Shown one piece after another: positions 21,212 through 53,329 of a stretch of 64,000 nt of DNA. The stretch is from Alphaproteobacteria bacterium. Lineage in GTDB: Bacteria; Pseudomonadota; Alphaproteobacteria; Micavibrionales; Micavibrionaceae. The notes beneath the pieces were generated by a model. That model saw nothing but the letters and a program-made list of their open reading frames with translations. It ran no database searches and was not told the origin of the DNA. The stretch lies in the NCBI GenBank assembly GCA_018399685.1, contig JAGYOK010000006.1, positions 1 through 64,000 of the forward strand, read 5' to 3'. The position numbers were made by a program, and so were the translations under genes. Position 1 is the stretch's first letter; each line of letters opens with the position of its first letter.

Positions 21212-21220
21212 TAAAACTAA

Positions 21221-36124: not shown

Positions 36125-36147
36125 GGGGTAACGCCCCCCTGTTTTTT
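36124..36147 (+). terminator. Intrinsic terminator after the CheZ-like gene
   Basis: AGGGGGTAACGCCCCCCTG followed by six T. GGGGG/CCCCC stem begins at the stop codon of the gene. Confidence 0.8.
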
Positions 36148-36250
36148 GTCATCACCCGAATTTTCATTCAGAAAATTATAGCGTGATCCAGTGATGTTAG
36201 GAGTATTTGCTGGATTCCCCTAGGAGTACTGCGTAATCCGGAGAATGACA
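36147..36250. repeat. Dispersed palindromic element, diverged form
   Basis: TGTCATCACCCG at the left and GGAGAATGACA at the right, with internal GTGATCCAGTGA and CTGGATTCCCC. It follows the same TGTCAT...ATGACA layout as family A but with different inner sequence. Confidence 0.5.
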
Positions 36251-36281
36251 ATGGAGGGTATGACAGGGGTGAGCCAATAAG

Positions 36282-36665
36282 TTAGTTATGACCAGTAAGA
36301 GCTGCATTCACCATATAAGTCGAACGTTTCATACCCATTGTAGCGGCTGCCGCATCGATGGCCTCAAGCTCGCTCGCCTGCAGGGTAATGTTCACCCGCA
36401 CAGTCTTATCCTGCTCTTTGATAGAGACGATAAACGCAAATCCGTTAGTATAATCCGGTTCTTTGGCAATATCATCCAGAGCAGACGGAGCAGGGATATC
36501 CGCTCCATCCTCGCGCAATCCATCTATATGAAAGGCCAATGCCTCAGTGGCCATATCTTTGGCCTCATCAAGCGTTCTTCCTGCGGTCACGCATCCCGGA
36601 AAATCCGGAAAGCTAACCCCATAATCACTCTCACTATCTTTGTGCAAAATTGCTACATAATCCAT
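36282..36665 (-). CDS. Orphan HicB-type antitoxin
   Basis: A 127-residue HicB-like protein. Residues 1-60 form the partial RNase H-like fold with the family signature YGVSFPDFPGCVTAGRTLDEA, and residues 85-127 look like a ribbon-helix-helix DNA-binding domain (VNITLQASELEAIDAAAATM). HicB normally neutralises the mRNA interferase HicA, encoded next door. No HicA-like ORF is found in the 200 bp on either side, which are filled by palindromic repeats. It may be a remnant or a regulator with another role. Confidence 0.82.
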   Translation of the reverse strand: MDYVAILHKDSESDYGVSFPDFPGCVTAGRTLDEAKDMATEALAFHIDGLREDGADIPAPSALDDIAKEPDYTNGFAFIVSIKEQDKTVRVNITLQASELEAIDAAAATMGMKRSTYMVNAALTGHN

Positions 36666-36736
36666 CGCGTTTTCTTCCTTAATACGTTAACACGAGCGTA
36701 AGGGATGCAATTCAAAAGTGCAATCCAGAAAACGTG

Positions 36737-36815
36737 TGTCATCCCCGCTTTATGCGGGGATCTGGGAATATGGAGCGCTCGACTTTCCGGATGCCCGAAC
36801 ACGTCGGGTATGACA
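36737..36815. repeat. Dispersed palindromic element, family A
   Basis: TGTCATCCCCGC at the left, GCGGGGATCTGGGAAT in the middle, CCGGATGCCCG and GTCGGGTATGACA at the right; 79 bp. Same layout as 12985-13135 and 19069-19154. It occupies the position where a hicA would be expected. Confidence 0.75.
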
Positions 36816-36869
36816 GGGGAGATTGCCGCCTCCCCCCATTCGCGCTGTGCTTATAATATGGTTAAGGAA

Positions 36870-37421
36870 TTAGGTGTCTATAAAACGTATGTGTAGGCCG
36901 GAAGAAGGACGAGGGCACTTTTTGTCAGAAACAAAGTCTTTCCAAATACCAAAGGAGTTAAAAGTTGGCCATAGCCAATTTATCAAATGTACATGGCTTC
37001 CACATTTCCAGTTGTTGTTTTCTTTACTTACATCTCTTTGATCGAAGTAAAAAAAGTACCATCTAGAAAAATCGTTATTATAAAATAGGTGACCAGCAGA
37101 AATTTTTCTGTCTTCGAACATTTGGGTGATTTTATTAACAGATTTCTTTGTATTTGGTTTGAAACTGCCGACACCATTATTTGCTATAGCTTTATGGTCT
37201 AATTCATTTAGTCTTAGGTGTTCAGGCTCAAACGTATCATAGTGTGACATGCAGTTTATACGAGCTTTTCCATAGGTTGCAGAAAAGACAAGTTTAGAGA
37301 AGTCTCGTTTTGATATAATTGTGTCTTTGCAGTGTTTTTTTAGTTCTTTTTTACTGTCTATAAGGAAGATTCTATGAAAGTTTCTGGTTTGGTTTTCGTC
37401 GTGCATGCTATCACTCATCAC
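36870..37421 (-). CDS. Hypothetical protein, likely horizontally acquired
   Basis: A 183-residue protein, AT-rich compared with its neighbours. Recognisable pieces are FSATYGKARINCMSHYDTFE, NELDHKAIANNGVGSFKPNT and an aromatic C-terminal half (NDFSRWYFFYFDQRD, GSHVHLINWLWP). No catalytic motif or membrane segment is clear. It lies between two families of dispersed repeats, downstream of an orphan antitoxin. Base composition and surroundings suggest acquisition; function unknown. Confidence 0.6.
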   Translation of the reverse strand: MMSDSMHDENQTRNFHRIFLIDSKKELKKHCKDTIISKRDFSKLVFSATYGKARINCMSHYDTFEPEHLRLNELDHKAIANNGVGSFKPNTKKSVNKITQMFEDRKISAGHLFYNNDFSRWYFFYFDQRDVSKENNNWKCGSHVHLINWLWPTFNSFGIWKDFVSDKKCPRPSSGLHIRFIDT

Positions 37422-37435
37422 CCATTTTTTGTTTC

Positions 37436-37520
37436 GTCATTGCGAGCCTAGGCGAAGCAATCCAAAAGTGCAACGATGAATAGATTGCCGCGTCGGACGT
37501 TCGTCCTCCTCGCAATGACA
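37436..37520. repeat. Dispersed GTCATTGCGAG element, family B (full copy)
   Basis: GTCATTGCGAGCC at the left and GGCGAAGCAATCC, then GATTGCCGCGTCGGACG and CCTCCTCGCAATGACA at the right. The ends are inverted. A half copy is at 15338-15402. Such elements are common in diverse bacterial genomes. Confidence 0.75.
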
Positions 37521-37527
37521 ACTATGA

Positions 37528-39336
37528 TCAATCATCACCCATCTTCAGCGCAGCGATGAAGGCGCTTTGGGGGATGTCGACGTTCCCGTACTGGCGCATT
37601 TTGGCCTTACCTTTTTTCTGCTTTTCCAGCAGCTTTTTCTTGCGCGTAATATCCCCGCCATAGCACTTTGCCGTCACGTCTTTACGCAGAGCCGAGACAT
37701 TCTCCCGCGCGATCACCTTTCCGCCAATCGCGGCCTGAATAGCAATCTTGAACATCTGGCGCGGTATTAACGTCTTCAAACGCTCGCACATTTGCCGCCC
37801 ACGCCCTTCCGCAGTTGTGCGGTGCACAATCATCGCCAGCGCGTCCACAGGCTCCTCATTGACCCTTATTTCGAGCTTAACGAGGTCATTCTCGCCATAA
37901 CCATCCAGCTCATAGTCAAAACTCGCATATCCTTTGGACAAGCTCTTCAAGCGGTCATAAAAATCAAACACCACCTCGTTCAAAGGCAAGCGGTAAACCA
38001 GCATCGCCCGCCCGCCAACATAGGTAAGGTCTATCTGTACGCCTCTACGATCCTGACAAAGTTGCAACAAGCTGCCCAGAAATTCGTCCGGCACAAGGAT
38101 GGTGGCCTTGATCCATGGCTCTTCAATGGTTTTGATCTTGACCACATCGGGCATGTCCACAGGGTTATAAAGCTCTATATTCTCGCCATTGGTCAGGTTG
38201 ATTTTGTAAACAACGCTCGGCGCAGTGGGGATCAGATCAAGGTCAAATTCGCGCTCGAGGCGCTCTTGTATGATCTCCATATGCAAAAGGCCGAGGAACC
38301 CGCATCGAAAGCCAAGTCCCAGAGCTTGCGAGCTTTCCGCTTCGTAATGCAGGCTCGCATCATTCAGGCGGATTTTGCCCAAAGACTCACGCAGCTTTTC
38401 AAACTCGCTGGCATCAGCCGGATAAAACGAGCAAAACACCATCGGAATAGAGGGTTTAAAGCCGGGGAGCTTCACGGCGCAAGGGGTCTTGTCATCGGTG
38501 ATCGTGTCACCAACATTCGTCTCGGATATATCTTTAATCGAAGCGGTGATAAAGCCCATCTCGCCGGGGCCGAGCTCTGGCAGCTCAACCTTTTTGGGGG
38601 TAAACATACCCACATGGTCGATCTCGCGCTTGGCGCCATTGCTCATAAAACGGATCTTCTGGCCTTTTTTCAGCGTGCCGTCGATCACACGTACAAGCAC
38701 CACAACGCCAAGATAAATGTCGTACCAGCTATCCACCAGCAAAGCTTTGGTCGGCTTTGTAATATCGCCCTCTTCAGGGCAGGGCAGGCGGGTGACAATC
38801 GCCTCGAGCAATTCATCAATCCCTGCGCCGGTCTTGGCCGAAGTTAGTATAGCATCATCGGCAGGCAAGCCGATTACATCTTCTATCTGGCTTTTGGCAT
38901 TTTCGGGATCGGCCGCAGGAAGGTCGATTTTGTTAATCACCGGAACGATCTCGTGATCGTTATCCATCGCCTGATATACATTGGCCAGCGTCTGCGCCTC
39001 CACCCCTTGCGTGGAATCCACCACCAGCAGCGAGCCTTCGCATGATGCCAGCGAGCGGGAAACCTCATAGGAAAAGTCCACATGGCCGGGCGTGTCCATC
39101 AAATTAAGCTGGTACTCGATCCCGTCTTTGGCAGTATAGGCAAGGCGCACAGTCTGCGCTTTGATCGTAATGCCGCGCTCACGCTCAATATCTGTATTAT
39201 CGAGCACTTGCTCGCTCATCTCGCGCTCTTCCAGCCCGCCACAAGTCTGGATCAACCGGTCGGCAAGAGTACTCTTCCCATGATCGATATGGGCAATAAT
39301 TGCGAAATTGCGAATATGTTCAAGCTTTTGCGTCAT
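37528..39336 (-). CDS. lepA: Elongation factor 4 (back-translocating GTPase LepA)
   Basis: LepA is a ribosome-associated GTPase. The 602-residue protein starts [20 protein letters not shown] with the P-loop AHIDHGKST at residues 15-23, [12 protein letters not shown] (G3), [11 protein letters not shown] (G4) and the LepA-specific C-terminal domain around [20 protein letters not shown]. Its ATG overlaps the stop codon of a 32-residue upstream ORF whose first 16 codons resemble lepA itself (see the entry at 39333). Otherwise a normal LepA. Confidence 0.97.
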
Positions 39337-39431
39337 TTGGTCTCTTTTATTTCGCCGAACAATGCCTGCGCATTGCTTCGGTCATGGGCAATAATGGCAA
39401 AGTTTCGTATGTGCTTTAAGTCTTTTGTCAT
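39333..39431 (-). CDS. 32-residue leader ORF repeating the N-terminus of LepA
   Basis: The ORF reads [20 protein letters not shown] and ends GEIKETK. Its first 16 residues match the start of LepA ([16 protein letters not shown]) with 13 identities. The ten codons for [10 protein letters not shown] differ from those of lepA at six third positions while coding the same residues. That is more than expected for a recent copy and hints at selection on the peptide or an old duplication. The stop TGA overlaps the lepA ATG (ATGA), so translation is probably coupled. It could regulate lepA in cis, act as a decoy leader, or be a remnant of a duplication. Confidence 0.6.
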
Positions 39432-39554
39432 GGCAGGGAAGATACGGATTTTATTGAGATACAGCAATCAAAAAATGAACGGATAATAAGAGGGCTTTTT
39501 GTTTGCCACGAAATTGTGTAAAGATTAAGTATAAATATGTATGAGGAACAACTT

Positions 39555-39806
39555 ATGAGCACTCCAAAAAAACAAACAAAAAAGAAGCAAAAAGCGCATG
39601 AGCCGGAATTGTTTGAAAAATCCTATCTGCCATCAGAGGAAGAGGGGAAAAAGCCGCCTTATATATTCCTCGCGCTGATTGCCTTTGTTATCCTGACTTT
39701 TATATGGAAGGGGATGGCCACGAAAGATGCAGATGAGGCCGCCCGCAGTAGCGTGCCCAATATCTCTCAAAACGAGGTCGCCAAACCCGTTGATATGATG
39801 AAGTAG
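39555..39806 (+). CDS. Small single-pass membrane protein
   Basis: An 83-residue protein: a Lys-rich N-terminus (MSTPKKQTKKKQKAHEPELF), one membrane helix (YIFLALIAFVILTFIWKGM) and a short polar tail. The ATG at 39555 has AGGAAC ahead of it; an ATG six codons earlier is possible. It is divergent from lepA and convergent with the minus-strand island. Function unknown. Confidence 0.6.
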   Translation: MSTPKKQTKKKQKAHEPELFEKSYLPSEEEGKKPPYIFLALIAFVILTFIWKGMATKDADEAARSSVPNISQNEVAKPVDMMK

Positions 39807-39847
39807 AATTAGGGGGATATTTGCGCGGCAATGCTGCGCTGCGCAAA

Positions 39848-39877
39848 AAGAAAGGCAGGCGGGAGTTATCGCCTGCA
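39848..39877 (-). terminator. Minus-strand terminator of the 40-49 kb island
   Basis: On the minus strand GCAGGCG, 8-nt loop, CGCCTGC is followed by CTTTCTTTTT. It lies 50 bp downstream of the 57-residue ORF. Confidence 0.7.
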
Positions 39878-39929
39878 CTTAAATAAAATAGGAGTGTTAA
39901 TTTCTATATGGTCTAGTCGCTCTCAACCC

Positions 39930-40103
39930 TTACATTCCGAATGTATCGAATGTGTGCTGAGCATCCGGTGTAGCGACTGCTGCATCGTTGCTGGCAGCTC
40001 CACAAACAGACTCGAACAAGCTGGAAATTGGTGCAGCGCCATGCTGTGTCATTTCCATTGTGTGGCTGGCGAGCAGATTAAATGAACCCGTTAAATTTCT
40101 CAT
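39930..40103 (-). CDS. 57-residue protein, last gene of the 40-49 kb island
   Basis: A small ORF (57 codons plus stop) starting MRNLTGSFNLLASHTMEMTQ and ending HTFDTFGM. AAGGAG with 8 bp spacing (AAGGAGTGAAGACATG) is a strong ribosome binding site, and the codons avoid rare triplets, so it is probably translated. It lies 70 bp downstream of the 122-residue gene and is followed by a minus-strand terminator. Composition is Ala/Ser/Thr/His-rich with one Cys; no membrane segment. Function unknown. Confidence 0.55.
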   Translation of the reverse strand: MRNLTGSFNLLASHTMEMTQHGAAPISSLFESVCGAASNDAAVATPDAQHTFDTFGM

Positions 40104-40173
40104 GTCTTCACTCCTTATTTGTTTTTTATCTTTAAAACTAAATCCTCGCCTGCTTATACGCAGATCTCATTAT

Positions 40174-40542
40174 TTAGTCCCTGTGCAGGATAAGGGGGAT
40201 ATAGTGGCCTTCCTTGGCGTCTCCCGTTTCCTCATCTAGCAAAACTGCTAATATCTGGTGGGCATTGTGCATATGCTTCGAAACTGATTTGTCTAAAGGC
40301 ATACCAAAATCACGTACCATTCCACCGTCTAAAATAAAGTCTAACTTGTTGGTTTCTAAATCAAATTCTAACCATGACAAGTCGTTTTTAAAAACTTTAT
40401 TATGAAAGAGAATAACTCTTCCGTCATCATTTATAGCGACTTCAACCTTAAACGGACTATCATCTGTAACACCATAAACAAAGTCAGTCAGGTTCCCAAC
40501 TGGAGGCCTATGATTGTCTTGTGCTACATATTCGTTTGTCAT
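40174..40542 (-). CDS. Unknown protein, paralogue of the 160-residue island protein
   Basis: A 122-residue protein. It shares a clear pattern with the preceding gene: LEFDLETNKLDFILDG here versus LEYDPDTCRITVITND there, and LDEETGDAKEGHYIPLIL here versus RTEDGKSIDGVIVPLKI there. Both look like strand-rich, acidic domains of one fold. It is 83 bp downstream of the 160-residue gene on the same strand. No known family is recognised. Confidence 0.6.
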   Translation of the reverse strand: MTNEYVAQDNHRPPVGNLTDFVYGVTDDSPFKVEVAINDDGRVILFHNKVFKNDLSWLEFDLETNKLDFILDGGMVRDFGMPLDKSVSKHMHNAHQILAVLLDEETGDAKEGHYIPLILHRD

Positions 40543-40625
40543 CCCGTTTATTTATTCTCTATCCTTAACAATATTATATAATGTCCAGCTAAAAAAAGCC
40601 CGTTTTTTTTACACTTTTTTTTATA

Positions 40626-41108
40626 TTAATTTACGGTTTTTGTTATTTGCGGAGCCTTGATTTTCAAAGGAACAATAACGCCGTCAATCGACTTACCATC
40701 TTCAGTCCTGATAATATACAAATCCTGCTCTTTGGCAATATAGGGACGCACCAGCCATTGAATTCTTACACCTAAATCCAGACGTTGCCGGTCGTTCGTA
40801 ATCACGGTAATCCGGCATGTATCGGGGTCATATTCAAGATGATCGATTGTGCAGCCCAGCTCCGGCCCGTGGAAAATATAGTTTATGCCGTTTTTATGGT
40901 CACAAAAAATATCAAGATCATCCGGGTTTTCAAACAGCTTCGAGCGCCCGGATCCATATCCGGTGCCCCAATCATCGCCCATGCTCTTTGGTGAAGAGGG
41001 GGCGGAGCTGTTGTTTTTCTCTTTGTCTGACATCATAAGGTTTGCCATAAATGGCTCATTATTAGAGCGTTCAGGGGAAGTATATCCTGTAACACTTAAT
41101 AAAATCAT
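40626..41108 (-). CDS. Unknown protein, paralogue of the 122-residue island protein
   Basis: A 160-residue protein with a Ser/Pro/Asn-rich first third (KNNSSAPSSPKSMGDDWG) and a strand-rich domain from residue 58 to the end, paralogous to the 122-residue gene. The start at 41108 follows AAGGTTAATGTT, a good ribosome binding site; a second ATG at 41048 is possible. It lies 42 bp downstream of the 679-residue gene, so it is likely in the same operon. Function unknown. Confidence 0.6.
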   Translation of the reverse strand: MILLSVTGYTSPERSNNEPFMANLMMSDKEKNNSSAPSSPKSMGDDWGTGYGSGRSKLFENPDDLDIFCDHKNGINYIFHGPELGCTIDHLEYDPDTCRITVITNDRQRLDLGVRIQWLVRPYIAKEQDLYIIRTEDGKSIDGVIVPLKIKAPQITKTVN

Positions 41109-41150
41109 AACATTAACCTTGTTATATGGGAAGACTTGAGCGTCGATGAT

Positions 41151-43190
41151 TTACATACCATCGGTTCCGGTAGCATCAAGCTGGTTTGATTGCTGCCCTG
41201 CAATAAGTTTTTCGACAAATCCCTGACCGACTTCATAGCGAACCTTGATAGCATTTTCACCCAGATCGACACCATTGATTTTATTGATGGTAACAACGCC
41301 GGGGTAGGAAAGATCATTAGGAACGTTTTTCCCGCTACCGGACATGTTTGCAACGATTTCATCATGATTTCTGGCAATAAGCTCGCCTTGAATGTGTTCA
41401 TCAATTTTTGTTTTAATCGCATCCCTGATCTCGGGAGAAACCTTCAGAACTTCACCTTTTTCAGGCAATTTAATGAGGTTACCGTTTACAACAGTCAGCT
41501 TGCCGCCATCCGCAGCCTGTTTTCTGATTTCGCCATCAGGGTAATCAAGAACAATGTTTTTGACAACGTTGCCATGAGAATCTTTGATAAGCAGACCTTT
41601 ATTATCGTTCGATGTTTCGCTTTTGTTGTAATCATCCGCTGTGCCCTGTCTAGGCAGAGAGCTCGGAACAGTTCTTCCGCTACCTTGACCGGAATAATAA
41701 TTGCCCATTCTTGCGTCTGCGGCTTTCACCATTTCTGTGCCGGTCTCGCCAGAGCGGTGCAGAAGGTAGCCAACCATACCAATTATAAGGCCCCATTTAA
41801 CAACGCCGGGCATCTGGCCGCCGAAGAACATACTGTTAACCGTATTAAGTGCGAGCAAGCCACCAAAGCCAATAGCAACCTGTTCGGTCACGTTGAGAAT
41901 GTTGCGCTCTTTTTGGGTTTTGGCATTCATTTTCATGTCGTGCCACCCGTCAGTGAATTTACTGACACCGTTAAAGACAGTGTTTATGCCGGTTGATATA
42001 GCGCTTTTCCCACCGTATGGATCACCGCCAAACGTTTGATTTAAAATGCCGTATTCACCGCCAAGCATCTCATCGGCATGGTAATGACTAAAAGCGGGAT
42101 TACTTTGCAACGTAGAAATTCGCTTGTCTGTATCAATGGCAGCTTCTTTTAAAATACCGCCAGCCTCTTTAGAGCCTTCTTTGATAACGTCAAGATTTGT
42201 TTGGATATCTTTAAGAAGTGCTTTCGCCGTATCGGCATCAGAGGCTGTTTTAAGGGCATCAACCTCTTTTTGCAGAGTTTCGATATTATCAAGATTTGGC
42301 TTCACGTCGCCGTGAATATCTTTAATCACGCTTTGAAAGCTTCTTAAAGCCTCAAAGCCCGGAAGAACGTTCATCTCTCGAATGCTGCTAACAACATTTG
42401 CCAGATCATTTTGGCCTTTTTCTATAAAGCCATCGACAGCGTCAATAGCCAGCTTGTCATTGATTTTCAAAAGCGTGATAAGCTCACCAACACCGGTGCT
42501 CTCTCCCGGCATTGTAGTCGCATAATTATTGATTTTCTGAAGCTCTCTTTTTGCTTCTTCAAGCATCCTTTGTGCCTCGTCCTTTTCAGAGGCCAATGGA
42601 TCAACCGGCTTTGGCGGAGGAGGAGGCGCTGCTGGTTGTGTAGTGTCACCCTGTTGTGTAGTGTCACCCTGCGCTACTGGCTGCTGTGTAGTGGTGTTTG
42701 GTGGCGCAGGTTGTCCGGGAATAGTGCCAGTTGCCACTTGCGGATTTTCGGTAGACGCTGGTTGAAGCATTCTGTGTGAAGCTACTGCCAAAGAAGTGAA
42801 CATAGGGAAAAGCAGTTTGTTTTTACTCATACCGAGATCTTCGGCCAGCGCCAGTGTTACTGCTGTAGCTTTATCCTGAGTTAATACTTCTCCTTTATCA
42901 GCCATCTTGCCGATAGCTTCACTGAAACCTTTCAGCTCGGCAATCTTCTTACGTTCAAAGATATCAAAAGAATCATTTTTAATAGTTCTTTTCTCTTTTT
43001 TATCGAGGTCTTCATCAAGATCTTTTTTTACGGTCTTCTCCCATTTGGGGAGAGCCTCAACGAGATTGCCCTCGTGCTTTTTTATGTAGTTTTCCAAGTG
43101 GTCAAGCACAGGTTCGGACATGCCCTCCCGGTTCATACCCTGGAGGAGAGCATCAATAACCTTATGAAATTCTCTAGGATCTTTTGCCAT
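41151..43190 (-). CDS. Large island protein 4: Pro-rich linker, coiled coil, membrane segments
   Basis: A 679-residue protein of unknown family. Layout: N-terminal helical domain (residues 1-150) containing HLENYIKKHEGNLVEALPKW, shared with the 1088-residue protein. A Pro/Thr/Gln linker near 157-200 has a tandem VAQGDTTQQGDTTQP repeat. A coiled-coil region follows (about 210-390), then two adjacent hydrophobic segments (435-478: FGGLLALNTVNSMFFGG, VKWGLIIGMVGYLLHR) and a soluble C-terminus (about 500-679). No signal peptide. Its promoter is nearly identical to that of the 1088-residue gene. Confidence 0.65.
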   Translation of the reverse strand: MAKDPREFHKVIDALLQGMNREGMSEPVLDHLENYIKKHEGNLVEALPKWEKTVKKDLDEDLDKKEKRTIKNDSFDIFERKKIAELKGFSEAIGKMADKGEVLTQDKATAVTLALAEDLGMSKNKLLFPMFTSLAVASHRMLQPASTENPQVATGTIPGQPAPPNTTTQQPVAQGDTTQQGDTTQPAAPPPPPKPVDPLASEKDEAQRMLEEAKRELQKINNYATTMPGESTGVGELITLLKINDKLAIDAVDGFIEKGQNDLANVVSSIREMNVLPGFEALRSFQSVIKDIHGDVKPNLDNIETLQKEVDALKTASDADTAKALLKDIQTNLDVIKEGSKEAGGILKEAAIDTDKRISTLQSNPAFSHYHADEMLGGEYGILNQTFGGDPYGGKSAISTGINTVFNGVSKFTDGWHDMKMNAKTQKERNILNVTEQVAIGFGGLLALNTVNSMFFGGQMPGVVKWGLIIGMVGYLLHRSGETGTEMVKAADARMGNYYSGQGSGRTVPSSLPRQGTADDYNKSETSNDNKGLLIKDSHGNVVKNIVLDYPDGEIRKQAADGGKLTVVNGNLIKLPEKGEVLKVSPEIRDAIKTKIDEHIQGELIARNHDEIVANMSGSGKNVPNDLSYPGVVTINKINGVDLGENAIKVRYEVGQGFVEKLIAGQQSNQLDATGTDGM

Positions 43191-43246
43191 AAGATATCAA
43201 CCTGTTATCACCTAAATAAACTGTTATTATAATTATACTTAATAAA

Positions 43247-43276
43247 ATAGTACCGGAAATGGAGAGCGTCTGTCAA
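43247..43276 (-). promoter_or_regulatory. Strong promoter of the 679-residue gene
   Basis: On the minus strand: TTGACA (43276-43271), 18 bp, TACTAT (43252-43247). The spacer ends CTCCATTTCCGG, as in the promoter at 46614. The leader that follows also shares TATAATTATAATAA and GGTTGAT with the other copy. Confidence 0.75.
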
Positions 43277-43292
43277 ACTTTTTCATAAATAA

Positions 43293-46200
43293 CTAAATTT
43301 GCAAATTCACAAAATCCGGGGTTTTAGCCAAATCTGTTTGAGCGCTGTTTTTCTGCGCCCCATCATTGCCAGTAGCAGCTATAAGGGTTCCGGTAGCCTT
43401 GTTAGCAAAATGATTGTTCAAGGTGCTTGTGTCAAGGTGCGCACTCTCAAAAGCTTTCTTCATCGCTGTTTTTAAAAGATTGTCTGTATCGTCCGGTTTT
43501 TCTGATGTGCTGCCCTCAAGCTCTTTTTTCCACTTCGGCGTGTCGTCAGGCTCTCCTTCAAGCGTCTTTTTCCACTCCGGTGTGTCGTCCCCGAATGTTT
43601 TTTCCAGTTTATTCGAAGCTGCGGAAAAAGGAGTTGATATTACTTCAAACAAGGTGTCGTAAGATTTCCCTTCCGCACGGGCAGCTTCATCAAATTCTTT
43701 ACCGGGGACAATTTCATTATCAAATTTATCTATAAGGGAAAATGTATAAGGATCGACTAGATCTCTAACCAAGCTGGCATCGAAGTCGTTCCCTATCTGT
43801 CCCAATAAATTTTTCCCGAATGTAAGCGGGTCATCCCGATCACCTTCATCTGCGGCCGCGTAACTAATAGTGGAGCCTACAGCGTGCCCCAATGAATACA
43901 CACCGGTTCCAATTATTCCTGCGCCATATGTAGCAGCTTTACTGAACCATATAGCCGGCGTTGCTGTATCCCGCGCCCACTTGCCAGCTGTAATTACACC
44001 CCATTCTACGGGGTTTGCCTGATCGTCGCTGTCTGTACGCATGTAATTAATACCCGCCAGGCCAGTATTTGCAGTCGCATATGCTGCAAAGGGCATCATA
44101 AGATGCCATGTTTTGACTTCGACAGGGAATTTTATCAGAGCATTGTTCCAATTCGCCGGGTTAAGCAGGGACATACCTGAATTTCTGTAGACAAAACGAA
44201 GGGGTGTATACCTGTCAAATTCGGCTGTATAGGACTTTTTCCCCAGATTACTCATATAACGATCGCCGACATACTTGCCGCCTTTGTCCAACAGCTCTTT
44301 ATTATCAAGATTATCTTTAATCTTTCTACCCATTGCCCAGTCAAGATAATGGCTTCTGGCGCCCCTTATACGTTGCCACATCAAGTCGGTAGCAGGACTG
44401 GACATTCCCCCGAAACTTGTAACGTAATTCCAGGTCTTGCCTAAATAAGGAGTATAACTAAGGGGGTTAACAGCATCTTTCCATGTGATAGAACTAGCCC
44501 CTTTATCAACTTTGTTTATCAGGTTGTAAAGTGCCGGATCAGCACCAAATTTGTCGGCCATATATCGCTGACTACCGGGCCAGGAACCATCATATGTAAA
44601 AACAGCGGCTTCTTTAATATTCTCGACAGCACGAATGTCATAAGGGTTGTCCAGGCTTTTTATAATCTCGTCCATTGCGGATGAAAACTCATCGGGCATT
44701 GTTTTTAAGACATGCTCACCTTCCATCATTTTCATAATTTTTACAATTTGAACTGCGGTGGTTTCGCCAGGACCTCCAAATTTAATAAAGTTTTTAAAAG
44801 CAGCTTTAAAGTTTCTTAAATCACCGGTACCACCCCAAGTGACCCCTCCGGAGCCTTCCGGATTCAATTGTTTTATAAACAGATTGAAGGGGCTCAATAA
44901 TTTTGCTCCCAAATTTCCTTCATCCCCTTTGGGCAGAGGTTTTACACGAGTTTGATTGTTATAGGCGTGGGTAAGTCTTTCCTCAAGATCATGCTTAACA
45001 CGCCAAAGAACATTGTCGCCAAGCATAACGTTGCCTTTTTTATCACGGGCAAATCCGCCCTCCGCAGCATCTGCAAGTTGCTTACCAAATCTGCGTTCGT
45101 AATAAGAGCTCCCAACGCGCTCCCCGATTCCGCTATCAATAATCGCATTCAGGGTTTCTGATCCTTTTGTACGAATACTAAGCGTATTTCCGTCAGCATT
45201 TTTGATGGTTTTATCTATTTGTATCTGAATAGTTTCCATCAAACCTTTGTTAGCTTCCGGATTCAAAGCATATTCAACGCGCTCAATATTGTCATTGGCC
45301 CATTCAAGCAAACGTGCTTTTTGAAGATGATCCATACCGTTTTTAAATGAATATTTTTTTGTCTCATTAACAACCGGTACGATTTTCTCAAAATCTTCAC
45401 GCATTTTGAGTAGCTCGTCATGAAACGATTTAAGAGAATCTCTGTAGCCAGACTGGTTAGCCTTACTGGTGAAAACCTCATGCATTTTCCTGACGACATT
45501 ATCATGCGTAATTACTTCACCTTCGTACTCTCCCTTTCTGGAAAAAGCATGGGTAACTTTCTTCAGCTCGCTTTGGAGATCAACAAACTTATCAAGCGCC
45601 CCAGTTTCTTTTAATGCATTGTCAAAATCCTTGATGCGGGGTCGCATATGTATTCTGCTAATCCCAAAATTGGGAAGATGGAGAGGCACGCCGCGGTCAT
45701 TTTCCCTTATAGCTTTAAGGAAATTAGGTGCTTCCATAATATTGGCGGCATAGCTTCTCCACGCACCAAACGTATTTTGGTACCATTCGCGCTCTGCAAG
45801 AAGTTTTGCCGAATTATCCCCGGAAGAAAAACTGTTAAAGACTTTGGAAATACCAGTTTTAAGAACATCTAGAGTTGATTTATTACCACCATCATCCGCC
45901 ACCTTAGCAGCAGTGCTGGCGGCGTCATCAGCAATATCCGCTCCCGGTGTTGCCCCGGATTTCACAGATGGCTTGGCTTCGATATTGGCCATTTTCTGGC
46001 TTAGTTCTTCACGAGCCAGCTTATCTATTTCTGCCCCGTCCAGACTCTTTCCTGCGGCTTTTAATTCTGCACTAATATTGTTTCTATAACTTTTAAGTAA
46101 TTCTTCTCTGGTTTTAAATCCCTCAAGAGATTCTTCAACCACATCTTTCATGAAGCGGACTTTGCTGATGTCCTCAACCGCCTCATCTTTTACTATCAAT

Positions 46201-46559
46201 CCGGCATCATCGGCCAGCTTGGTAAGCATGTTGTCAAGGTCGCTTTTTGTGAAAACTTCAGAACCATTCAATTTAAGAGCAAGCTCATCGCCAAACTTGT
46301 CGAAGACGGCCAGCCTCTTTCCGCTTAGAAGGAATTTCATAGCGTTACTATCAAAAAAATCTTTAGCAGCCGGAGACAGTTTTACATCATGGGATTCTTT
46401 AAGCTTTTTAATGAAATCGGGAAAAGATTCGTCAAGGTTTCCCTTACTGGTTCTGACAAAATCATCAAGATGCTTGGCTATCGCTGTGTCCAGCACGTCG
46501 TCGCCGGAGGATCCAATCATCCCCTTAAACATTTTTACAAGACTGTTAGGATTTGCCAT
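43293..46559 (-). CDS. Large island protein 3, 1088 residues
   Basis: The biggest gene of the window. The N-terminal domain (residues 1-150) contains HLDDFVRTSKGNLDESFPDF, aligned with the 679-residue protein. A helical middle follows with segments such as FHDELLKMREDFEKIVPVVN. Hydrophobic segments lie near residues 814-840 (HLMMPFAAYATANTGLAGI) and 866-900 (AATYGAGIIGTGVYSLGHAV). The C-terminal 150 residues are charged with GEPDDTPKWKKELEGS-type repeats (TPEWKKTLEGEPDDTPKWKK). No signal peptide and no known domain recognised. It has its own strong promoter at 46614. Confidence 0.65.
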   Translation of the reverse strand: MANPNSLVKMFKGMIGSSGDDVLDTAIAKHLDDFVRTSKGNLDESFPDFIKKLKESHDVKLSPAAKDFFDSNAMKFLLSGKRLAVFDKFGDELALKLNGSEVFTKSDLDNMLTKLADDAGLIVKDEAVEDISKVRFMKDVVEESLEGFKTREELLKSYRNNISAELKAAGKSLDGAEIDKLAREELSQKMANIEAKPSVKSGATPGADIADDAASTAAKVADDGGNKSTLDVLKTGISKVFNSFSSGDNSAKLLAEREWYQNTFGAWRSYAANIMEAPNFLKAIRENDRGVPLHLPNFGISRIHMRPRIKDFDNALKETGALDKFVDLQSELKKVTHAFSRKGEYEGEVITHDNVVRKMHEVFTSKANQSGYRDSLKSFHDELLKMREDFEKIVPVVNETKKYSFKNGMDHLQKARLLEWANDNIERVEYALNPEANKGLMETIQIQIDKTIKNADGNTLSIRTKGSETLNAIIDSGIGERVGSSYYERRFGKQLADAAEGGFARDKKGNVMLGDNVLWRVKHDLEERLTHAYNNQTRVKPLPKGDEGNLGAKLLSPFNLFIKQLNPEGSGGVTWGGTGDLRNFKAAFKNFIKFGGPGETTAVQIVKIMKMMEGEHVLKTMPDEFSSAMDEIIKSLDNPYDIRAVENIKEAAVFTYDGSWPGSQRYMADKFGADPALYNLINKVDKGASSITWKDAVNPLSYTPYLGKTWNYVTSFGGMSSPATDLMWQRIRGARSHYLDWAMGRKIKDNLDNKELLDKGGKYVGDRYMSNLGKKSYTAEFDRYTPLRFVYRNSGMSLLNPANWNNALIKFPVEVKTWHLMMPFAAYATANTGLAGINYMRTDSDDQANPVEWGVITAGKWARDTATPAIWFSKAATYGAGIIGTGVYSLGHAVGSTISYAAADEGDRDDPLTFGKNLLGQIGNDFDASLVRDLVDPYTFSLIDKFDNEIVPGKEFDEAARAEGKSYDTLFEVISTPFSAASNKLEKTFGDDTPEWKKTLEGEPDDTPKWKKELEGSTSEKPDDTDNLLKTAMKKAFESAHLDTSTLNNHFANKATGTLIAATGNDGAQKNSAQTDLAKTPDFVNLQI

Positions 46560-46613
46560 AACACATCAACCCATTTATCACGAATACAATTATTATAATT
46601 ATAAATTAACTAC

Positions 46614-46643
46614 ATAGTACCGGAAATGGCGGCTGTTTGTCAA
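46614..46643 (-). promoter_or_regulatory. Strong promoter of the 1088-residue gene
   Basis: On the minus strand: TTGACA (46643-46638), 18 bp, TACTAT (46619-46614). CCATTTCCGGTACTAT is identical to the promoter at 43247. The near identity extends from -35 through the leader, so one is a duplicate of the other. Confidence 0.75.
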
Positions 46644-46661
46644 ATTTAATTACATATATAA

Positions 46662-48290
46662 CTACTGGGGCAGGAGGTAAAGGGAAGGGTCTTTTCTTAC
46701 TTCTGCATCAGGGGTTTGAGTATTGGTCTGCCCGGATGGATCCGCAGGTATGACAGTATTCAGCCCACGGTTGTTGAATTCGTTTCTTCTTAGGGGGTCT
46801 TCGCCAAGATTTGGCTGGTCTTTTGATGAGCTTTGGGACGCACCTTTTACTTTGCCAAAATCACTATTAATGTTAGGTTTATTGGCCGCTTCTGCTTTTT
46901 CTTTTTCCAGTAAAGCCTTGAGGTTATTGGTTGTATCTCCAACACCAGACATTTCCTTCACAACCTTATTTGCATCATCTTCTTTTTCCTGCGTTTCACC
47001 TTTGCCTGCACTGTAACTGAGGTAAGAAGCAAGACCAAAGCCGGGGATTTCCATCCATGGATTTCTTAAAGGATCTGTAAAATGAACGCCTCTGGCTGCA
47101 CCAACGCGCGCGCCTTCTATAATATTCCCCAGATACGACCCTGTGTTTGTGTATTGAACCTTATTGGCAAGGTGCAAAGCATCTTCGGCTTTATAGGTTT
47201 TCAGTCCCAAACGTTCGGCGACCTTGTTAACTCCCTCATCAAGCTTCTCTTGGATGGCGTCAAGCTTTTTCGTTTTAGCTGTTTCAGAGAGGCCTTTTGC
47301 TTCTATTTTTTGCACTTTTCTAGAGAATTTTTCCCCGACATAAGCATCCAGATCCGCTTGTTTATTGGCCGTGCCGCCTGTACTGGGATCAATTTTTCGA
47401 TGAAGATTATCAATCACAGTATCACCTTTTTTGCCGTGCAATACATCATCCGCTTTTTGCAATTTTTTTTGTGATTTTTCCATAAGATCAGCCGCGGCTC
47501 GGCCGGTTTCCCCTGCGCTTTTTGTGGTCAGCTTTTTAGATTTTTTAATCAACTCAATAGCGTCATCAACATGGGTGACGGTTTTTGTATATTCAAGAGA
47601 TTTTGTACCGCGAGCAAGAAATTCCGCGCCCGGTATTTTATTCATTAAGGGTATTTTGCTGGGTAGCGCGAAATATTTGGCATTTTTCAAGCTGCCAAGA
47701 ACAGCTCCCATTCCTCCAGCGCTTCCAACAAACATAACTGTGTCGCCAACACCTGTGCCGATCCCTTTTAAAACAAACTCGGTATTGGCATGCGGGTTCT
47801 TCGTTACGCCATCTTTCAGATACAGACTTGTTGGCTCAACAAATTCAATTTTCTTAACAGCGGCTTCCGTAAGGGACATAAAGCCGCCCTTATCTTCCCA
47901 AGCTTTCCAGGCAGCTTCTTCACCCCATATACCTGTAGTCGTTGCATTAAATAATGCTGCGCCCGGATCGTATGTAAGAGCTGTGGCAATATCAAGAACT
48001 ATGGTTCCGCAAGAAGCGGCTGATTCAACGACGCCTTCTGCAAGCAGCCCCATGCTGCGCCCGAAGTTTTTCAAAGGATCTTCGGCTATATAGGCGGGAA
48101 CGGTTTTTACGCCGTTTACAACTTTGTCGCCAAACTCACCGAGTTTTTCCCCGGTTGAGCGTGTATCAAGATGTTTTTTGATTTCTTCGATATCAGGGTT
48201 ACCGGTTTGAGCGCCAACATTCGCTCCCCAGCCAGCATTTTCTTTAGCAAGGTCGAAAGTCTGGTTTTTTTGTTGCTCGGTTTCTGACAT
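46662..48290 (-). CDS. Large island protein 2, 542 residues
   Basis: A 542-residue protein. Hydrophobic or small-residue segments lie near residues 82-112 (LLAEGVVESAASCGTIVLDI) and 176-205 (GTGVGDTVMFVGSAGGMGAV), separated by charged helices. The middle (residues 240-390) is Lys/Glu/Ala-rich and probably coiled coil (AAADLMEKSQKKLQKADDVL). The C-terminal 100 residues are Asn/Pro/Gln-rich and probably unstructured. It starts 67 bp downstream of the 260-residue gene. No signal peptide, no recognised family. Confidence 0.6.
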   Translation of the reverse strand: MSETEQQKNQTFDLAKENAGWGANVGAQTGNPDIEEIKKHLDTRSTGEKLGEFGDKVVNGVKTVPAYIAEDPLKNFGRSMGLLAEGVVESAASCGTIVLDIATALTYDPGAALFNATTTGIWGEEAAWKAWEDKGGFMSLTEAAVKKIEFVEPTSLYLKDGVTKNPHANTEFVLKGIGTGVGDTVMFVGSAGGMGAVLGSLKNAKYFALPSKIPLMNKIPGAEFLARGTKSLEYTKTVTHVDDAIELIKKSKKLTTKSAGETGRAAADLMEKSQKKLQKADDVLHGKKGDTVIDNLHRKIDPSTGGTANKQADLDAYVGEKFSRKVQKIEAKGLSETAKTKKLDAIQEKLDEGVNKVAERLGLKTYKAEDALHLANKVQYTNTGSYLGNIIEGARVGAARGVHFTDPLRNPWMEIPGFGLASYLSYSAGKGETQEKEDDANKVVKEMSGVGDTTNNLKALLEKEKAEAANKPNINSDFGKVKGASQSSSKDQPNLGEDPLRRNEFNNRGLNTVIPADPSGQTNTQTPDAEVRKDPSLYLLPQ

Positions 48291-48357
48291 TAACCATTCC
48301 TAAGTTATCATCCCCTCGCCAGCGGTAGCCTTTTATATGCTGCCATTAAGCCCTGAC

Positions 48358-49140
48358 CTAGCCAATATCCAGTGTTGGGTAGTTGTGATTTTCTGTCATG
48401 GCAAGATTTCTTGCCGGTACAGGTCCGGCGTTGTTCGAGCCAAGACTGGAATTTAGTACCTCATCAGGGATGACAACTCCGCTTCCGCGCATATTGGAAA
48501 TACTGTTACCTGCTTTTTCAACACCCAGTTTGTCGAGCGTGAATTCTTTTATCGTATCCCAGTTAATAGCAGTAAAGGCTATAAGAGACATGCCAAGGAA
48601 CGGGCCGGTAAAGTTGGTCCCACTAAATTTTTTGAATATCAATGAAAGAAGACCTGCGCCAGTTGCGGCCGCAGCAGACCCCTTCCAGTTAATACCGTCG
48701 TCATTCTTATCGCCCATAAGCATCTCTGCGACGCGATCCGTGATGCCGTCATTTTTCTTGCCCGGATCACCGCCCATTATGCCACCAGTGATATCGCCAA
48801 CTTTCTGTCTCAGGCTTTTATCTTCCGAACCGTTTTCTCCTAAAATTGGAGATAAACGACCCACATCTTTTCCCTCAACATTCTTTCCAGTAGCAATCGT
48901 ATACGCATCATCAATTCTGTCCCCAGTCCAGGCGAAGGCCGTTCCAATACCGCCGAAGGCGGCCTTGCTGGCGCTTTTGGTTCCGTCCCACGCGCCTTTA
49001 ATATCCAAGTCATCTTTTTGACCGTCACCATCCGCATCTGTATAGGCATTTTCTTTCCACGCGCGGCTTATTTTCCCCCTGAGGGCATAAATCGAGCTGC
49101 CGACTGCGCCAGTAAACATTAAAGGTAAAAACAAACCCAT
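48358..49140 (-). CDS. Large island protein 1, 260 residues with calcium-loop-like motifs
   Basis: A 260-residue protein with an N-terminal hydrophobic segment (LFLPLMFTGAVGSSIYAL) and further hydrophobic segments near residues 155-190 (AAAATGAGLLSLIF, GPFLGMSLIAFTAINW). Residues 35-46 (DADGDGQKDDLD) match the DxDxDG calcium-binding loop of thrombospondin type 3 and EF-hand-like repeats. A second weaker loop (GDKNDDGINW) follows near residue 143. Such loops are usually found outside the cytoplasm. It lies just after a 24-residue ORF with a good ribosome binding site. Function unknown. Confidence 0.6.
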   Translation of the reverse strand: MGLFLPLMFTGAVGSSIYALRGKISRAWKENAYTDADGDGQKDDLDIKGAWDGTKSASKAAFGGIGTAFAWTGDRIDDAYTIATGKNVEGKDVGRLSPILGENGSEDKSLRQKVGDITGGIMGGDPGKKNDGITDRVAEMLMGDKNDDGINWKGSAAAATGAGLLSLIFKKFSGTNFTGPFLGMSLIAFTAINWDTIKEFTLDKLGVEKAGNSISNMRGSGVVIPDEVLNSSLGSNNAGPVPARNLAMTENHNYPTLDIG

Positions 49141-49142
49141 GA

Positions 49143-49217
49143 CTATAGCCCTCCCTTGCTTGAAGTAAGAGAAGGTGGCGTATTTTTAGAGCCATATGTG
49201 CGAGGAATATTAAACAT
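49143..49217 (-). CDS. 24-residue leader ORF of the island
   Basis: On the minus strand MFNIPRTYGSKNTPPSLTSS and a short tail (KGGL) end with TAG two bases before the ATG of the 260-residue gene. AAAGGA lies 7 bp before its ATG. It may be a regulatory leader or a true small protein. Confidence 0.4.
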   Translation of the reverse strand: MFNIPRTYGSKNTPPSLTSSKGGL

Positions 49218-49284
49218 TCCGCTTTCCTTTTATCACCTTTATTATAGCACGCTTTTACGCGCTTTTTTATATCTAGTTATTAGC

Positions 49285-49314
49285 ATTATAAAATATGTAA
49301 AGCAATAAATGCAA
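49285..49314 (-). promoter_or_regulatory. Candidate promoter of the island
   Basis: On the minus strand: TTGCAT (49314-49309), 18 bp, TATAAT (49290-49285). The -10 is perfect; the -35 is partial. It lies about 70 bp before the 24-residue ORF. A second TATAAT occurs further downstream at about 49245. Confidence 0.5.
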
Positions 49315-49459
49315 GTTTTTAATGCTTATTCAAACGGATGAAATAGATTGATACCGCTATCGGATAAGCCGTCAAAGCTATTTATATCACAAAACCCGGC
49401 ATATCCGCGAGTTTTTTGTCATAAGACAGTGCTTTACTATTTTTGGAGCTATGGCGGTT

Positions 49460-51070
49460 TTAGTGATTAAAGTGACGCAAGCCGGTAAAGACCATAGCCA
49501 GACCACGCTCATTGGCAGCATCAATTACCTCCTGATCGCGGATAGAGCCACCGGGTTGGATAATCGCTGTAACTCCGGCATCCGCAGCCGTTATCAGGCC
49601 ATCGGCAAACGGGAAGAATGCATCAGAGGCAACAACCGAGCCAGTGGTCAAAGGCTCATCCCATCCGGCATCTTTTGCGGCTTTTTGTGCTTTCAAGACG
49701 GCTATGCGGCAGGAATCAACCCGGCTCATCTGTCCGGCTCCAATACCGACTGTCGCGCGGTCTTTCGCATAAACGATAGCATTGGACTTCACATGCTTGG
49801 CAACAGCAAAGGCAAAAAGCAGGTCGTCCATCTCTCTTTGTGTAGGTTCACGGTCTGTTACCGTGCGTAAATTTTCCTCATCAATCAGCAGGCTATCAGC
49901 ATCCTGAACCAGCAATCCGCCCGCAATGCGTTTTATAATGCGCGAGCGTTGTTGCTCACGATCTGGCATGGTTCCTGTTTCAAGCACACGGATGTTGCTT
50001 TTACGATTCAAGGCATCAAACGCATCTTCTTCAATGGAAGGAGCAATAATAACCTCGACAAAGCGCTCCACTATTGTTGCGGCAAGCTCTCCGGTAAGAG
50101 GGCGGTTCAGCGCAATAATCCCGCCAAACGCGCTTTCCTGATCGCAAAAAAGAGCCTGTTTATAAGCATCTAATACATTGTTGCCAACAGCTACACCGCA
50201 TGGGTTTGAATGTTTTATAATGGCCACGGCAGGATCATCAAATTCGAAAACCAGTTCAAATGCTGCATCGGTATCCGCCAGATTATTGTAGGAAAGTTCC
50301 TTACCTTGCCTTTGCCTGGCAAGAGCCGCACCCGGGCGGGGCGCTGAATCATCACTCAAATAAAGAGCAGCACTCTGATGAGGGTTTTCGCCATAGCGCA
50401 ATTTTTGCTTTAACGTGCCGGAAAAGCTGATCCGACGGGGTGTTGCCTCATCATTTTGCGCGGCAAGCCAGCCAGAGATGGAAGAATCATATGTTGCAGT
50501 CAGGGAAAACGCTGTAAGAGCAAGGTCTTGGCGAGTTTTATAGGTAATGGCGCCGTCATTTTCTTCCATTTCCTTGATGATGTACTCATAATCCTGAGGG
50601 TCTGTAACCACGGCAACATGCTCATGATTTTTGGCAGAAGCCCGGATCATCGCCGGCCCGCCAATATCTATATTCTCGATACATTCCTGAAAAGGCTTAC
50701 CGCTTTGTATAGTTTCGACAAACGGATAAAGGTTGACCACCACCATATCTATTGGGGCAATATCGTGTTCACGCATCACAGCAATATGATCTTCGTTGTC
50801 ATGCTTGCCCAAAATTCCGCCATGGATCTTAGGGTGCAGCGTCTTTACACGTCCTTCCATAATCTCTGGGAAGCCTGTGTGACTGGACACGTCTTTTACA
50901 GTAATACCGGCCTCGGTAAGGGCTTTGGCAGTCCCGCCGGTTGAAAGAATTTCCACGCCATGCCCGCTCAATTTTCTGGCAAAGGCTTCAATCCCTAATT
51001 TATCGGATACGGAAATAAGGGCGCGTTTGATCTTCTTTGTTTTCGGATCATTAATTACTGTGTCATTCAT
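49460..51070 (-). CDS. purH: Bifunctional AICAR transformylase/IMP cyclohydrolase
   Basis: PurH performs the last two steps of IMP synthesis. In this 536-residue protein the N-terminal IMP cyclohydrolase is marked by [34 protein letters not shown] and [14 protein letters not shown]. The C-terminal transformylase shows [36 protein letters not shown] and [12 protein letters not shown], and ends with a metal/substrate segment [15 protein letters not shown]. Start ATG at 51070. The 390 bp downstream towards the island hold no gene but include the island promoter. With purC and folD it shows a full route to purines in this organism. Confidence 0.97.
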
Positions 51071-51211
51071 GATAATAAAGCATTCTTAAATTAGTGTAAG
51101 GATATATTGAAATATGGTTGATAAATAGTCAGTCAATGCGGCTTTTATAAACGTAAAAAACCTATCCTGCAAATCTTCTTCAAACCAGACAAAAAATATA
51201 TTTTAAAAGTT

Positions 51212-52066
51212 CTAGCCTGTTGCGACGGCAGGCGTTTTTACTTCACAGTGAACACTACCGGTTTTTGTGTATAATCCACGCACTTCCGGAACAATTTTAA
51301 GGTCTTCCGTAATCCCCAAAACAGTTTCAGCACCACCAAGGAAGAAAAACCCGTCATCCGCCATTTGTTTGCTCGCACGCTCCATAATGTCTTTTTTCGT
51401 GGGTTGGTCAAAATAAATCAGAACATTTCTGCAAAAAATAATATCGAATTTTCCAAGATTGCTCATCCCGTCTAGCAGGTTAAAATATTTAAAATTAACC
51501 ATCTTTTTGATTTCATCTTTTATAATCCATTTATCACCATCCTGAATAAAGTATTTCATCAAAAGCGTAATGGGCAAGCCGCGCTGTACTTCGAACTGCG
51601 AGTAAATCCCGTCTTTTGCTTGCGCCAGAATTTCATGTGAAATATCTGTAGCAGAAATAGAAAATCGCCAATCCGGCATTTTTGCAGCTTCTTCTTTCAA
51701 AAGCATGGCCAAAGAGTATGGCTCCTGTCCGCTTGATGCGGCAGCACACCAAATCTTCAGATGCTTGGAGCTATTAGGATTTGTTTGATAATAGGGCAGA
51801 ACAGTATTCTTAAAAACGTCAAAAGGCTTGGTGTCGCGGAAAAACGATGTCTCATTAGTTGTCATTGCCTCGATTATATCATTAACCAGATCCTTGGGCG
51901 GCACACCGCGCAGGACTTTAGTCATGTCAGAAATGCCCTCGTAACCCCATTTTTTTGCGACCGGGTTGAGGCGTGATTCGACAAGATACGACTTGTCCTG
52001 AGAAAGCACCAACCCTGATTTTTCCTTCAGGATATCTTTGTATATGTCAAAATCAGTTATATTCAT
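51212..52066 (-). CDS. cheR: Chemotaxis protein methyltransferase CheR
   Basis: CheR methylates glutamates of chemoreceptors with S-adenosylmethionine. The 284-residue protein has the N-terminal helical domain (DILKEKSGLVLSQDKSYLVE) and a Rossmann domain with MTTNETSFFRDTKPFDV, KIWCAAASSGQEPYSLAMLL (SAM-binding) and FDIIFCRNVLIYFDQPTKK. It starts at ATG 52066. It is the last of the minus-strand chemotaxis genes, downstream of cheB. No receptor gene is in this window. Confidence 0.95.
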   Translation of the reverse strand: MNITDFDIYKDILKEKSGLVLSQDKSYLVESRLNPVAKKWGYEGISDMTKVLRGVPPKDLVNDIIEAMTTNETSFFRDTKPFDVFKNTVLPYYQTNPNSSKHLKIWCAAASSGQEPYSLAMLLKEEAAKMPDWRFSISATDISHEILAQAKDGIYSQFEVQRGLPITLLMKYFIQDGDKWIIKDEIKKMVNFKYFNLLDGMSNLGKFDIIFCRNVLIYFDQPTKKDIMERASKQMADDGFFFLGGAETVLGITEDLKIVPEVRGLYTKTGSVHCEVKTPAVATG

Positions 52067-52222
52067 CGCTTCTTATCTTTTAAATTATAATCGTTGTTTC
52101 TTACAAAATATTACACAAAGTTTAGTCTTACTTAGCCCGCTCGTCACGCTATGGCGTTAAAGTACATCCTACCGTCTTCTATCTGCCGCCTTGGTCAAGG
52201 CAGCAGGTTTTGTTAACTCCTC

Positions 52223-53329
52223 CTAATATAGATGACAGGCTCGCCTGACCCAGTTTCCCATTTCTGAAATTGGTAATACAGCAGAGCATATTCCAGCCAT
52301 TGCAACAGCTCCGGGCATACCCCATACCACACTTGTTTCTTCATCCTGTGCAATTATACGGCCACCAAGATCTACAAGCTTTTTCGATCCTTCAAGACCG
52401 TCATGCCCCATGCCGGTTAAAATTACGCACAATACTTTATTGCCATAGATTTCCATAAGAGAGCGCAACATTGGATCTGTTGACGGTCTACAAAAATTTT
52501 CCTGTGGCCCGTCATCAAGTTTTATAATCAGCCGACCCTCTTTTCGCTCAAAAACCATATGCCAGTTGCCGGGTGCGATATAGATTTTACCCGGTTCAAC
52601 CACCATACCGTCCTCGCCCTCAAAAGCGGGCAGGCCGGTTTGTTGCGTGATGTGTTCGGCCAGAAGTTTGGTAAAAGTTGCTGGCATGTGTTGAGTAATA
52701 ACAATGGGAATATCCAGAATATCAATATCTTGCAATATGTTGAATAGAGCTTTCGGCCCACCCGTGGAGCTGCCAATCGCAATAATCTCGGGCTTACCCC
52801 TGTAAGCGCCAAAATCATTTTTAAGAGTAAAACTTTTATCTAGCGGGGCAGGGGCAGGAGCCACGACTAGTCTATCTGCACCCGTTTTTTGCACCCCGCA
52901 AGGAGGTTTGTCTTTAGGCGCAAGCGATTTGACGATACTAATTAGTGTTTTCCTGAAAGTAGAGTCTTCCCCCCTTGCTTCTGCGCTTGACGGCTTGACA
53001 AGACACTCCACTGCTCCAAGAGCCATGGCCTTCATTGTCGTGTCAGCCCCTTTTGCAGTAAGGCTTGAACACATAACAACCTTTGTATCGGGAGAGTATT
53101 TGAGGATTTCAGGCAGCGCCGTCAAACCATCCATAACAGGCATTTCAACATCAAGAATAATAACATCAGGATGTTTGTTTTTGGCCATCATTATGGCGTT
53201 TTCACCATTGGAAACCGATGCCACTACATCAATACAAGGTTCGGAATTAAGGATACTCGCAATAATACTGCGGATGACGCTGGAATCATCTACAAGCATT
53301 ACAGTGATTTTATCGGAAGGAGAACTCAT
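52223..53329 (-). CDS. cheB: Protein-glutamate methylesterase/response regulator CheB
   Basis: CheB demethylates chemoreceptors after phosphorylation by CheA. The 368-residue protein has an N-terminal receiver domain (VMLVDDSSVIRSIIASIL, phosphorylation in VIILDVEMPVMDG) and a C-terminal esterase. The esterase has Ser in AIGSSTGGPKAL, His in VITQHMPATFTKLLAEH and Asp in GMGHDGLEGSKKL, the expected triad. The linker of about 45 residues contains two Pro-rich turns. It is upstream of cheR on the same strand and downstream of cheY. Confidence 0.95.
   Translation of the reverse strand: MSSPSDKITVMLVDDSSVIRSIIASILNSEPCIDVVASVSNGENAIMMAKNKHPDVIILDVEMPVMDGLTALPEILKYSPDTKVVMCSSLTAKGADTTMKAMALGAVECLVKPSSAEARGEDSTFRKTLISIVKSLAPKDKPPCGVQKTGADRLVVAPAPAPLDKSFTLKNDFGAYRGKPEIIAIGSSTGGPKALFNILQDIDILDIPIVITQHMPATFTKLLAEHITQQTGLPAFEGEDGMVVEPGKIYIAPGNWHMVFERKEGRLIIKLDDGPQENFCRPSTDPMLRSLMEIYGNKVLCVILTGMGHDGLEGSKKLVDLGGRIIAQDEETSVVWGMPGAVAMAGICSAVLPISEMGNWVRRACHLY

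Follow-up and report, generated by a model that had tools for sequence, protein, structure and literature searches.

Between lepA and purH in a Micavibrionaceae genome lies an island of seven minus-strand genes (A to G) and a 24-aa leader ORF. Two of its products, E and F, are members of a single new family of small, mostly acidic beta-domain proteins (here called EF). Tentatively, and with somewhat less than even confidence, E and F are interpreted as adaptors, and A to D and G as substrates, of a type IVB secretion system (T4BSS) used on prey, Micavibrio being a bacterial group that preys on other bacteria. E and F may bind A to D and G in the cytoplasm and deliver them to the secretion apparatus, through which these substrates (A, B, the giant C-D and G) would reach the surface or the interior of prey cells and may act there. 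The observations on which this reading draws are the gene order, the contrast in rate between the giants and E, the dedicated promoters, a T4BSS ATPase gene in the same genome and the linkage of EF genes to icmB and to orphan genes. Neither the lepA-purH locus, the EF family nor the EF-icmB link was found in the literature searched on Micavibrio.

The island between lepA and purH

The window (the whole stretch of 64,000 nucleotides analysed) is part of contig C65 of a 2.1-Mb genome, G000. All six ORFs named in a previous sequence-only reading are present on its minus strand at the lengths given there, and the ORFs of 24 and 57 aa that it added both recur at corresponding places in other loci (Table 1). 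The leader ORF has a counterpart abutting or overlapping A in seven of 15 other loci (six ORFs of 24 to 26 aa and, in L066, one of 30 aa) and none in eight. At the position of G, an ORF of 56 to 90 aa lies no more than about 90 nt downstream of F in 9/9 other loci read, homology here being judged by position and tail only. Gene A has homologues in G009 (33% identity) and G003 (32%), G010 has no A, and in other genera small ORFs occupy its position.

Table 1. Features of the island, in order of transcription (positions in the window)
Feature	Position	Strand	Remarks
-10 element (TGCTATAAT), head promoter of A	49241..49246	-	AAGGTGATAA conserved in genus loci; coordinates counted by hand from aligned sequence
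Leader ORF, 24 aa	49143..49217	-	Stop codon 2 nt upstream of A
Gene A, 260 aa, small hydrophobic protein	48358..49140	-	Homologues in G009 and G003
Gene B, 542 aa	46662..48290	-	Homologues in G009, G010, G003, G005 and G006
Promoter of C, TTGACA-N8-CCATTTCCGG-TACTAT	46614..46643	-	
Gene C, 1088 aa	43293..46559	-	N-terminal plus central region of the giant
Promoter of D	43247..43276	-	Duplicate of the C promoter
Gene D, 679 aa	41151..43190	-	N-domain copy, long helical part, C-terminal domain
Promoter of E, extended -10, TTCCCA-N17-TATGAT	41104..41132	-	TG before the -10
Gene E, very probably from M26, about 135 aa	40626..41033 (annotated ORF to 41108)	-	EF-domain
Gene F, 122 aa	40174..40542	-	EF-domain
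Gene G, 57 aa	39930..40103	-	After F; ends in GM
Terminator-like hairpin	39855..39876	-	Closes the unit

Hydrophobic segments had been claimed for all four large proteins. Hydropathy (threshold 1.3, window 19) revealed such a segment in A, B and D (at 438-456 in D), but none in C. The terminator proposed for the tail corresponds to a hairpin-like site, which alone is weak evidence, as there are 17 terminator-like sites in the region and 11.4 in shuffles. A search of Rfam with 36000-52500 gave no match. Elsewhere in the window, a plus-strand run of ORFs (555, 230, 277, 204, 649, 674 and 499 aa, and others) at 8834-25671 has a prophage-like layout, and 39537-39806, also on the plus strand, encodes an 89-aa protein with one hydrophobic stretch, relatives of which are encoded close to lepA in several loci of the genus.

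The view that none of these proteins belongs to a recognised family held up: all Pfam and NCBIfam matches of A to F were far under the curated cut-offs, and PHROGs gave nothing better than an E-value of 0.015. When 26 giants were compared with Pfam, 11 families were matched by one member each (best E 3.4e-4, a coiled-coil family), and five EF proteins from outside the lepA-purH locus, together with five neighbours, gave nothing at cut-off in the family libraries. The AlphaFold model of C is poor (pLDDT 41) and almost all helical.

Promoters and start sites

Two strong internal promoters had been predicted, and promoter-like sites (TTGACA-N8-CCATTTCCGGTACTAT) are indeed present upstream of both C and D, identical at 22/22 specified bases and conserved across species. 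With up to three mismatches allowed, this pattern occurs six times in 12 genus genomes: before C and D in both G000 and G009, before the giant of G006 and once in G007, where it has three mismatches, lies on another contig and is the sole occurrence not preceding a giant. The reversed pattern, used as a control, has zero occurrences in the same genomes. In G003, G005 and G010, TTGACA-N18 is retained with a variant -10.

The N-termini of C and D align with an hhalign probability of 96.6% (E 6e-10); with a C profile broadened to six species, the probability is only 4.0%. Taken together, the duplicated promoter and the matching N-domains suggest that the C/D split arose by copying of the 5' end of the giant. 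The E and F proteins share a single domain. Two paralogous pairs had been noticed earlier, and internal duplication is seen in the C/D N-domain match.

A conserved extended -10 overlaps the annotated ATG of E, and in L077, L080 and L092 the start of E is found far downstream of a similar element. Because the annotated ATG falls within this promoter element, M26 is very probably the start of E; the ORF of 160 aa stands as such.

A fixed place and fast-changing giants

The gene order lepA, F, E, D/C, B, A, purH is shared by G009 and G003, and by G010 without A, while in G003, G005, G006 and G010 the counterpart of C and D is one gene of 1488 to 1632 aa. Among 44 loci read, 30 contain both lepA and purH, on the same strand in 30/30 and with other ORFs between them; the remaining 14 lack one or both flanks owing to contig ends or rearrangement (for example, L076, L077 and L083). 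The gap holds one to three co-directional proteins of 285 to 2101 aa in 22 of the 30 two-flank loci, these 22 having been chosen for holding E or F and the other eight coming from genomes with no E-profile match. Those eight gaps measure 3.5 to 6.2 kb in seven cases and 0.8 kb in one; three contain an EF gene and five do not. In the gap of G047, an EF gene is the sole ORF of ≥ 90 aa. The giants are homologous across genera via chains of BLAST matches.

Of 142 genomes in the order, 62 contain a match to the E profile, and the seven named relatives of E are all from alphaproteobacterial MAGs, two of them Micavibrio sp. Where the locus was read, the homologues share their gene order instead of lying scattered, though in 16 genomes without an E match that were searched for both flanks, lepA and purH are close in eight and apart or on different contigs in the other eight. 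An origin as a phage or foreign island was ruled out by the recurrent place of the locus and the absence of a good PHROGs match.

Between the window and G009, the closest relative found, identity is 33 to 36% for A to D, 55% for F and 73% for E. The flank ends are 97.5% (LepA, 80 aa) and 94% (PurH, 70 aa) identical, and two fragments of aconitase from the same pair of genomes are 73 and 74% identical. Judged by these identities, the giants evolve unusually fast at a fixed chromosomal place.

The island had been read as one functional assembly, perhaps a membrane-associated complex or a secreted structure. A single functional unit is supported by the shared order, the conserved promoters and the occurrence of C-D as a single gene in four relatives. 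As a membrane scaffold, A to D might be stable components of the envelope or of the cell interior, put together with the help of E and F and not exported. Such a scaffold would fit the hydrophobic segments and long helical parts of D and other giants, the fixed order and the union of C and D in relatives, but it is unlikely, given that A to D are unusually divergent for an internal scaffold when set against LepA, PurH and aconitase, and that EF paralogues pair with many dissimilar orphans and in some genomes adjoin icmB. These linkages argue for secreted substrates and their adaptors rather than a single membrane assembly.

The EF family and its partners

The model of E (mean pLDDT 59) is usable only for residues about 64-150, a beta-rich core (pLDDT about 60 to 85) in which the EF domain has seven strands at moderate confidence. 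Foldseek returned no match to this model with E below 0.001, and VIA-align gave Z 3.0 at most, with chains of the FACT complex on top, which was taken as noise. There was no convincing match of EF to solved structures either by profile or by fold; in particular, IcmS, IcmW and LvgA among the solved structures showed no EF match by profile or by Foldseek (the latter with residues about 64-150 of the model).

A joint E/F profile has matches in 84 of 104 family genomes and none in 20. E and F are the only two EF matches of the window genome among the matches listed, and many family genomes have stand-alone EF genes elsewhere. In 19 of 22 stand-alone loci, picked by hand from profile matches and earlier loci, a co-directional orphan of 149 to 886 aa lies within 76 nt; of the other three, one has its orphan at 261 nt, one is at a contig end and one has no orphan. 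Eight further stand-alone EF genes include six with such a neighbour. Compared with Pfam, 28 EF-linked orphans matched three families, with one member each, at E ≤ 0.01, the best being Zeta_toxin. This match is to a stretch at residues 112-189 of an 886-aa protein (L131:4409-7069, G007; E 1.4e-4, 0.5 bits under the cut-off). Another EF-linked protein of G007, of 395 aa (L085:1896-3083), has a zinc-protease-like HEAFH stretch and no Pfam match.

The EF tree places E with EF proteins linked to orphans and to icmB (branch 93/90, not among the starred branches). F groups with the lone EF of L148, with two EF proteins of a different family within the order and with five from outside the order. The EF genes from outside the order are those of L106 to L110, and those of L106, L108 and L110 adjoin recR/YbaB/dnaX-like genes (identified by eye). 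Given its position on a second EF branch, its relatives outside the family and the three genes beside recR, F may serve a different function.

The orphans could instead be antibacterial toxins of the T4BSS, with EF proteins as their immunity partners. EF genes adjoin orphans, one orphan has the Zeta-toxin-like stretch and, in the available part of the published account, the T4BSS of Pseudomonas putida has a co-transcribed immunity protein that is predicted to be cytosolic (PMC9519443). However, there are two EF genes for one set of giants, and in G047 the EF gene has the lepA-purH gap to itself. Furthermore, E is far more conserved across relatives (64 to 73% identical) than its partners (25 to 36%), whereas immunity proteins usually track their toxin. 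Toxin-immunity pairing is thus distinctly unlikely.

Linkage to type IVB secretion

In L134, L137, L145, L146 and L149, a gene for an ATPase is followed by at least one short gene and then by EF. The ATPase is a protein of about 1000 aa (truncated by the locus edge in two of the five loci), and among its 3768 matches in plasmid records one bears the annotation IcmB and shares its region with DotB, DotC and IcmO. A search of 103 family genomes (all but G002) revealed icmB, encoding the T4BSS ATPase IcmB/DotO, in 100 of them and in 39/39 genera. The only icmB of the window genome (G000:C52; 69% over residues 5-994) is on a different contig from the island.

EF and icmB lie within 3 kb on one contig in at least 13 genomes of seven genera (G035, G089, G072, G032, G084, G082, G033, G124, G085, G123, G023, G112 and G113), compared with about one genome expected from a rough binomial with 250 sites that treats related genomes as independent. 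In seven of the eight such loci fetched the two genes are co-directional; in G113, EF is on the opposite strand. Of the 20 family genomes with no EF match, 19 have icmB (the other is G002), and since these 19 have the ATPase gene without an EF match, EF is not needed for the T4BSS as such. A small EF domain of housekeeping or regulatory function, linked to orphans and icmB by operon coincidence, is quite unlikely. In keeping with such a role, EF genes occur in five of the 385 genomes sampled outside the family and adjoin recR in three of the five, and 19 genomes have icmB but no EF match. The proximity to icmB, however, far exceeds the single genome or so expected.

Other T4BSS components accompany icmB. 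In G010, DotI near icmB is above the NCBIfam and Pfam cut-offs, DotH is above that of Pfam (E 3e-69) and DotG is below cut-off (E 3e-38). In G033, DotD is above Pfam's cut-off (E 2.7e-43), and DotB (E 2.5e-115) and DotF (E 2e-10) are below theirs. Opposite the T4BSS genes of G010 (L176 and the start of L171; G010:C2) are several proteins of about 350 to 470 aa that look alike by eye, and G035 has a similar run (L174).

C-terminal tails of the candidate substrates

In tests devised after the tails had been seen, with rough controls that include some spurious ORFs, the last 30 residues of the EF-linked orphans (n = 19) contain 27% P+Q, whereas 125 further ORFs from these loci average 9.5% (p 2.5e-8). 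The corresponding values for locus proteins are 19% (20 proteins under 250 aa) and 14% (50 larger), so the C-termini are P/Q-rich and K/R-poor in the orphans and more weakly so in island-type proteins. Met occurs in the last eight residues of 11/19 orphans and 8/10 G ORFs, compared with 13/125 controls; against small same-locus ORFs it is 8/10 for G and 5/23 for the others, and the orphan enrichment weakens against 285 ORFs of ≥ 250 aa from the loci read (p 0.0017 and 0.011). A C-terminal Met tag common to all giants was considered and dropped, Met not being enriched in the B/C/D groups or in the A-like group (from which the small ORFs L076_16323 and L058_8811 were left out).

The candidates lack the Legionella-type C-terminal motifs FxxxLxxxK and EExxE, which are absent from the four window proteins, 72 listed locus proteins and 19 EF-linked orphans; these motifs are rare in controls too (4/125 and 2/125, respectively). 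E-rich tails are not enriched (1/19 orphans and 7/72 locus proteins versus 24/125 controls).

Relation to known systems

The DotI, DotH, DotG, DotF, DotB, DotD and IcmB families of Dot/Icm are all present in Micavibrionaceae. As with the Dot/Icm adaptors, in so far as the available text describes them (PMC7251119), EF proteins are small, mostly acidic partners beside large candidate substrates. They differ in forming a beta-rich family of their own, for which the searches of solved structures gave no convincing match by profile or, with the usable part of the model, by fold. The presence of this T4SS type (pT4SSi) has already been reported in seven Micavibrionales, and no substrate, adaptor or lepA-purH locus was found in the portion of that report available (PMC9418006). 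In the 2011 genome paper, within the accessible part of its text, no such secretion system was found (PMC3189940).

A T4BSS kills bacteria in P. putida, according to the available part of that study, and its targets are thus bacterial, as is proposed here; the kib system was described there as a single island of recent acquisition that carries one effector-immunity pair (PMC9519443). In contrast, icmB occurs throughout the genera of Micavibrionaceae, and the candidate substrates are scattered.

In its widest form, the proposal is that the lepA-purH locus may be the main prey-facing arsenal of the whole predator family, with hypervariable giants injected by the T4BSS and loaded by EF adaptors that also mark scattered effectors; at that breadth we consider it rather unlikely. 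If true, EF genes would point to effectors, and thus give a direct handle on a T4BSS with a recognisable adaptor family.
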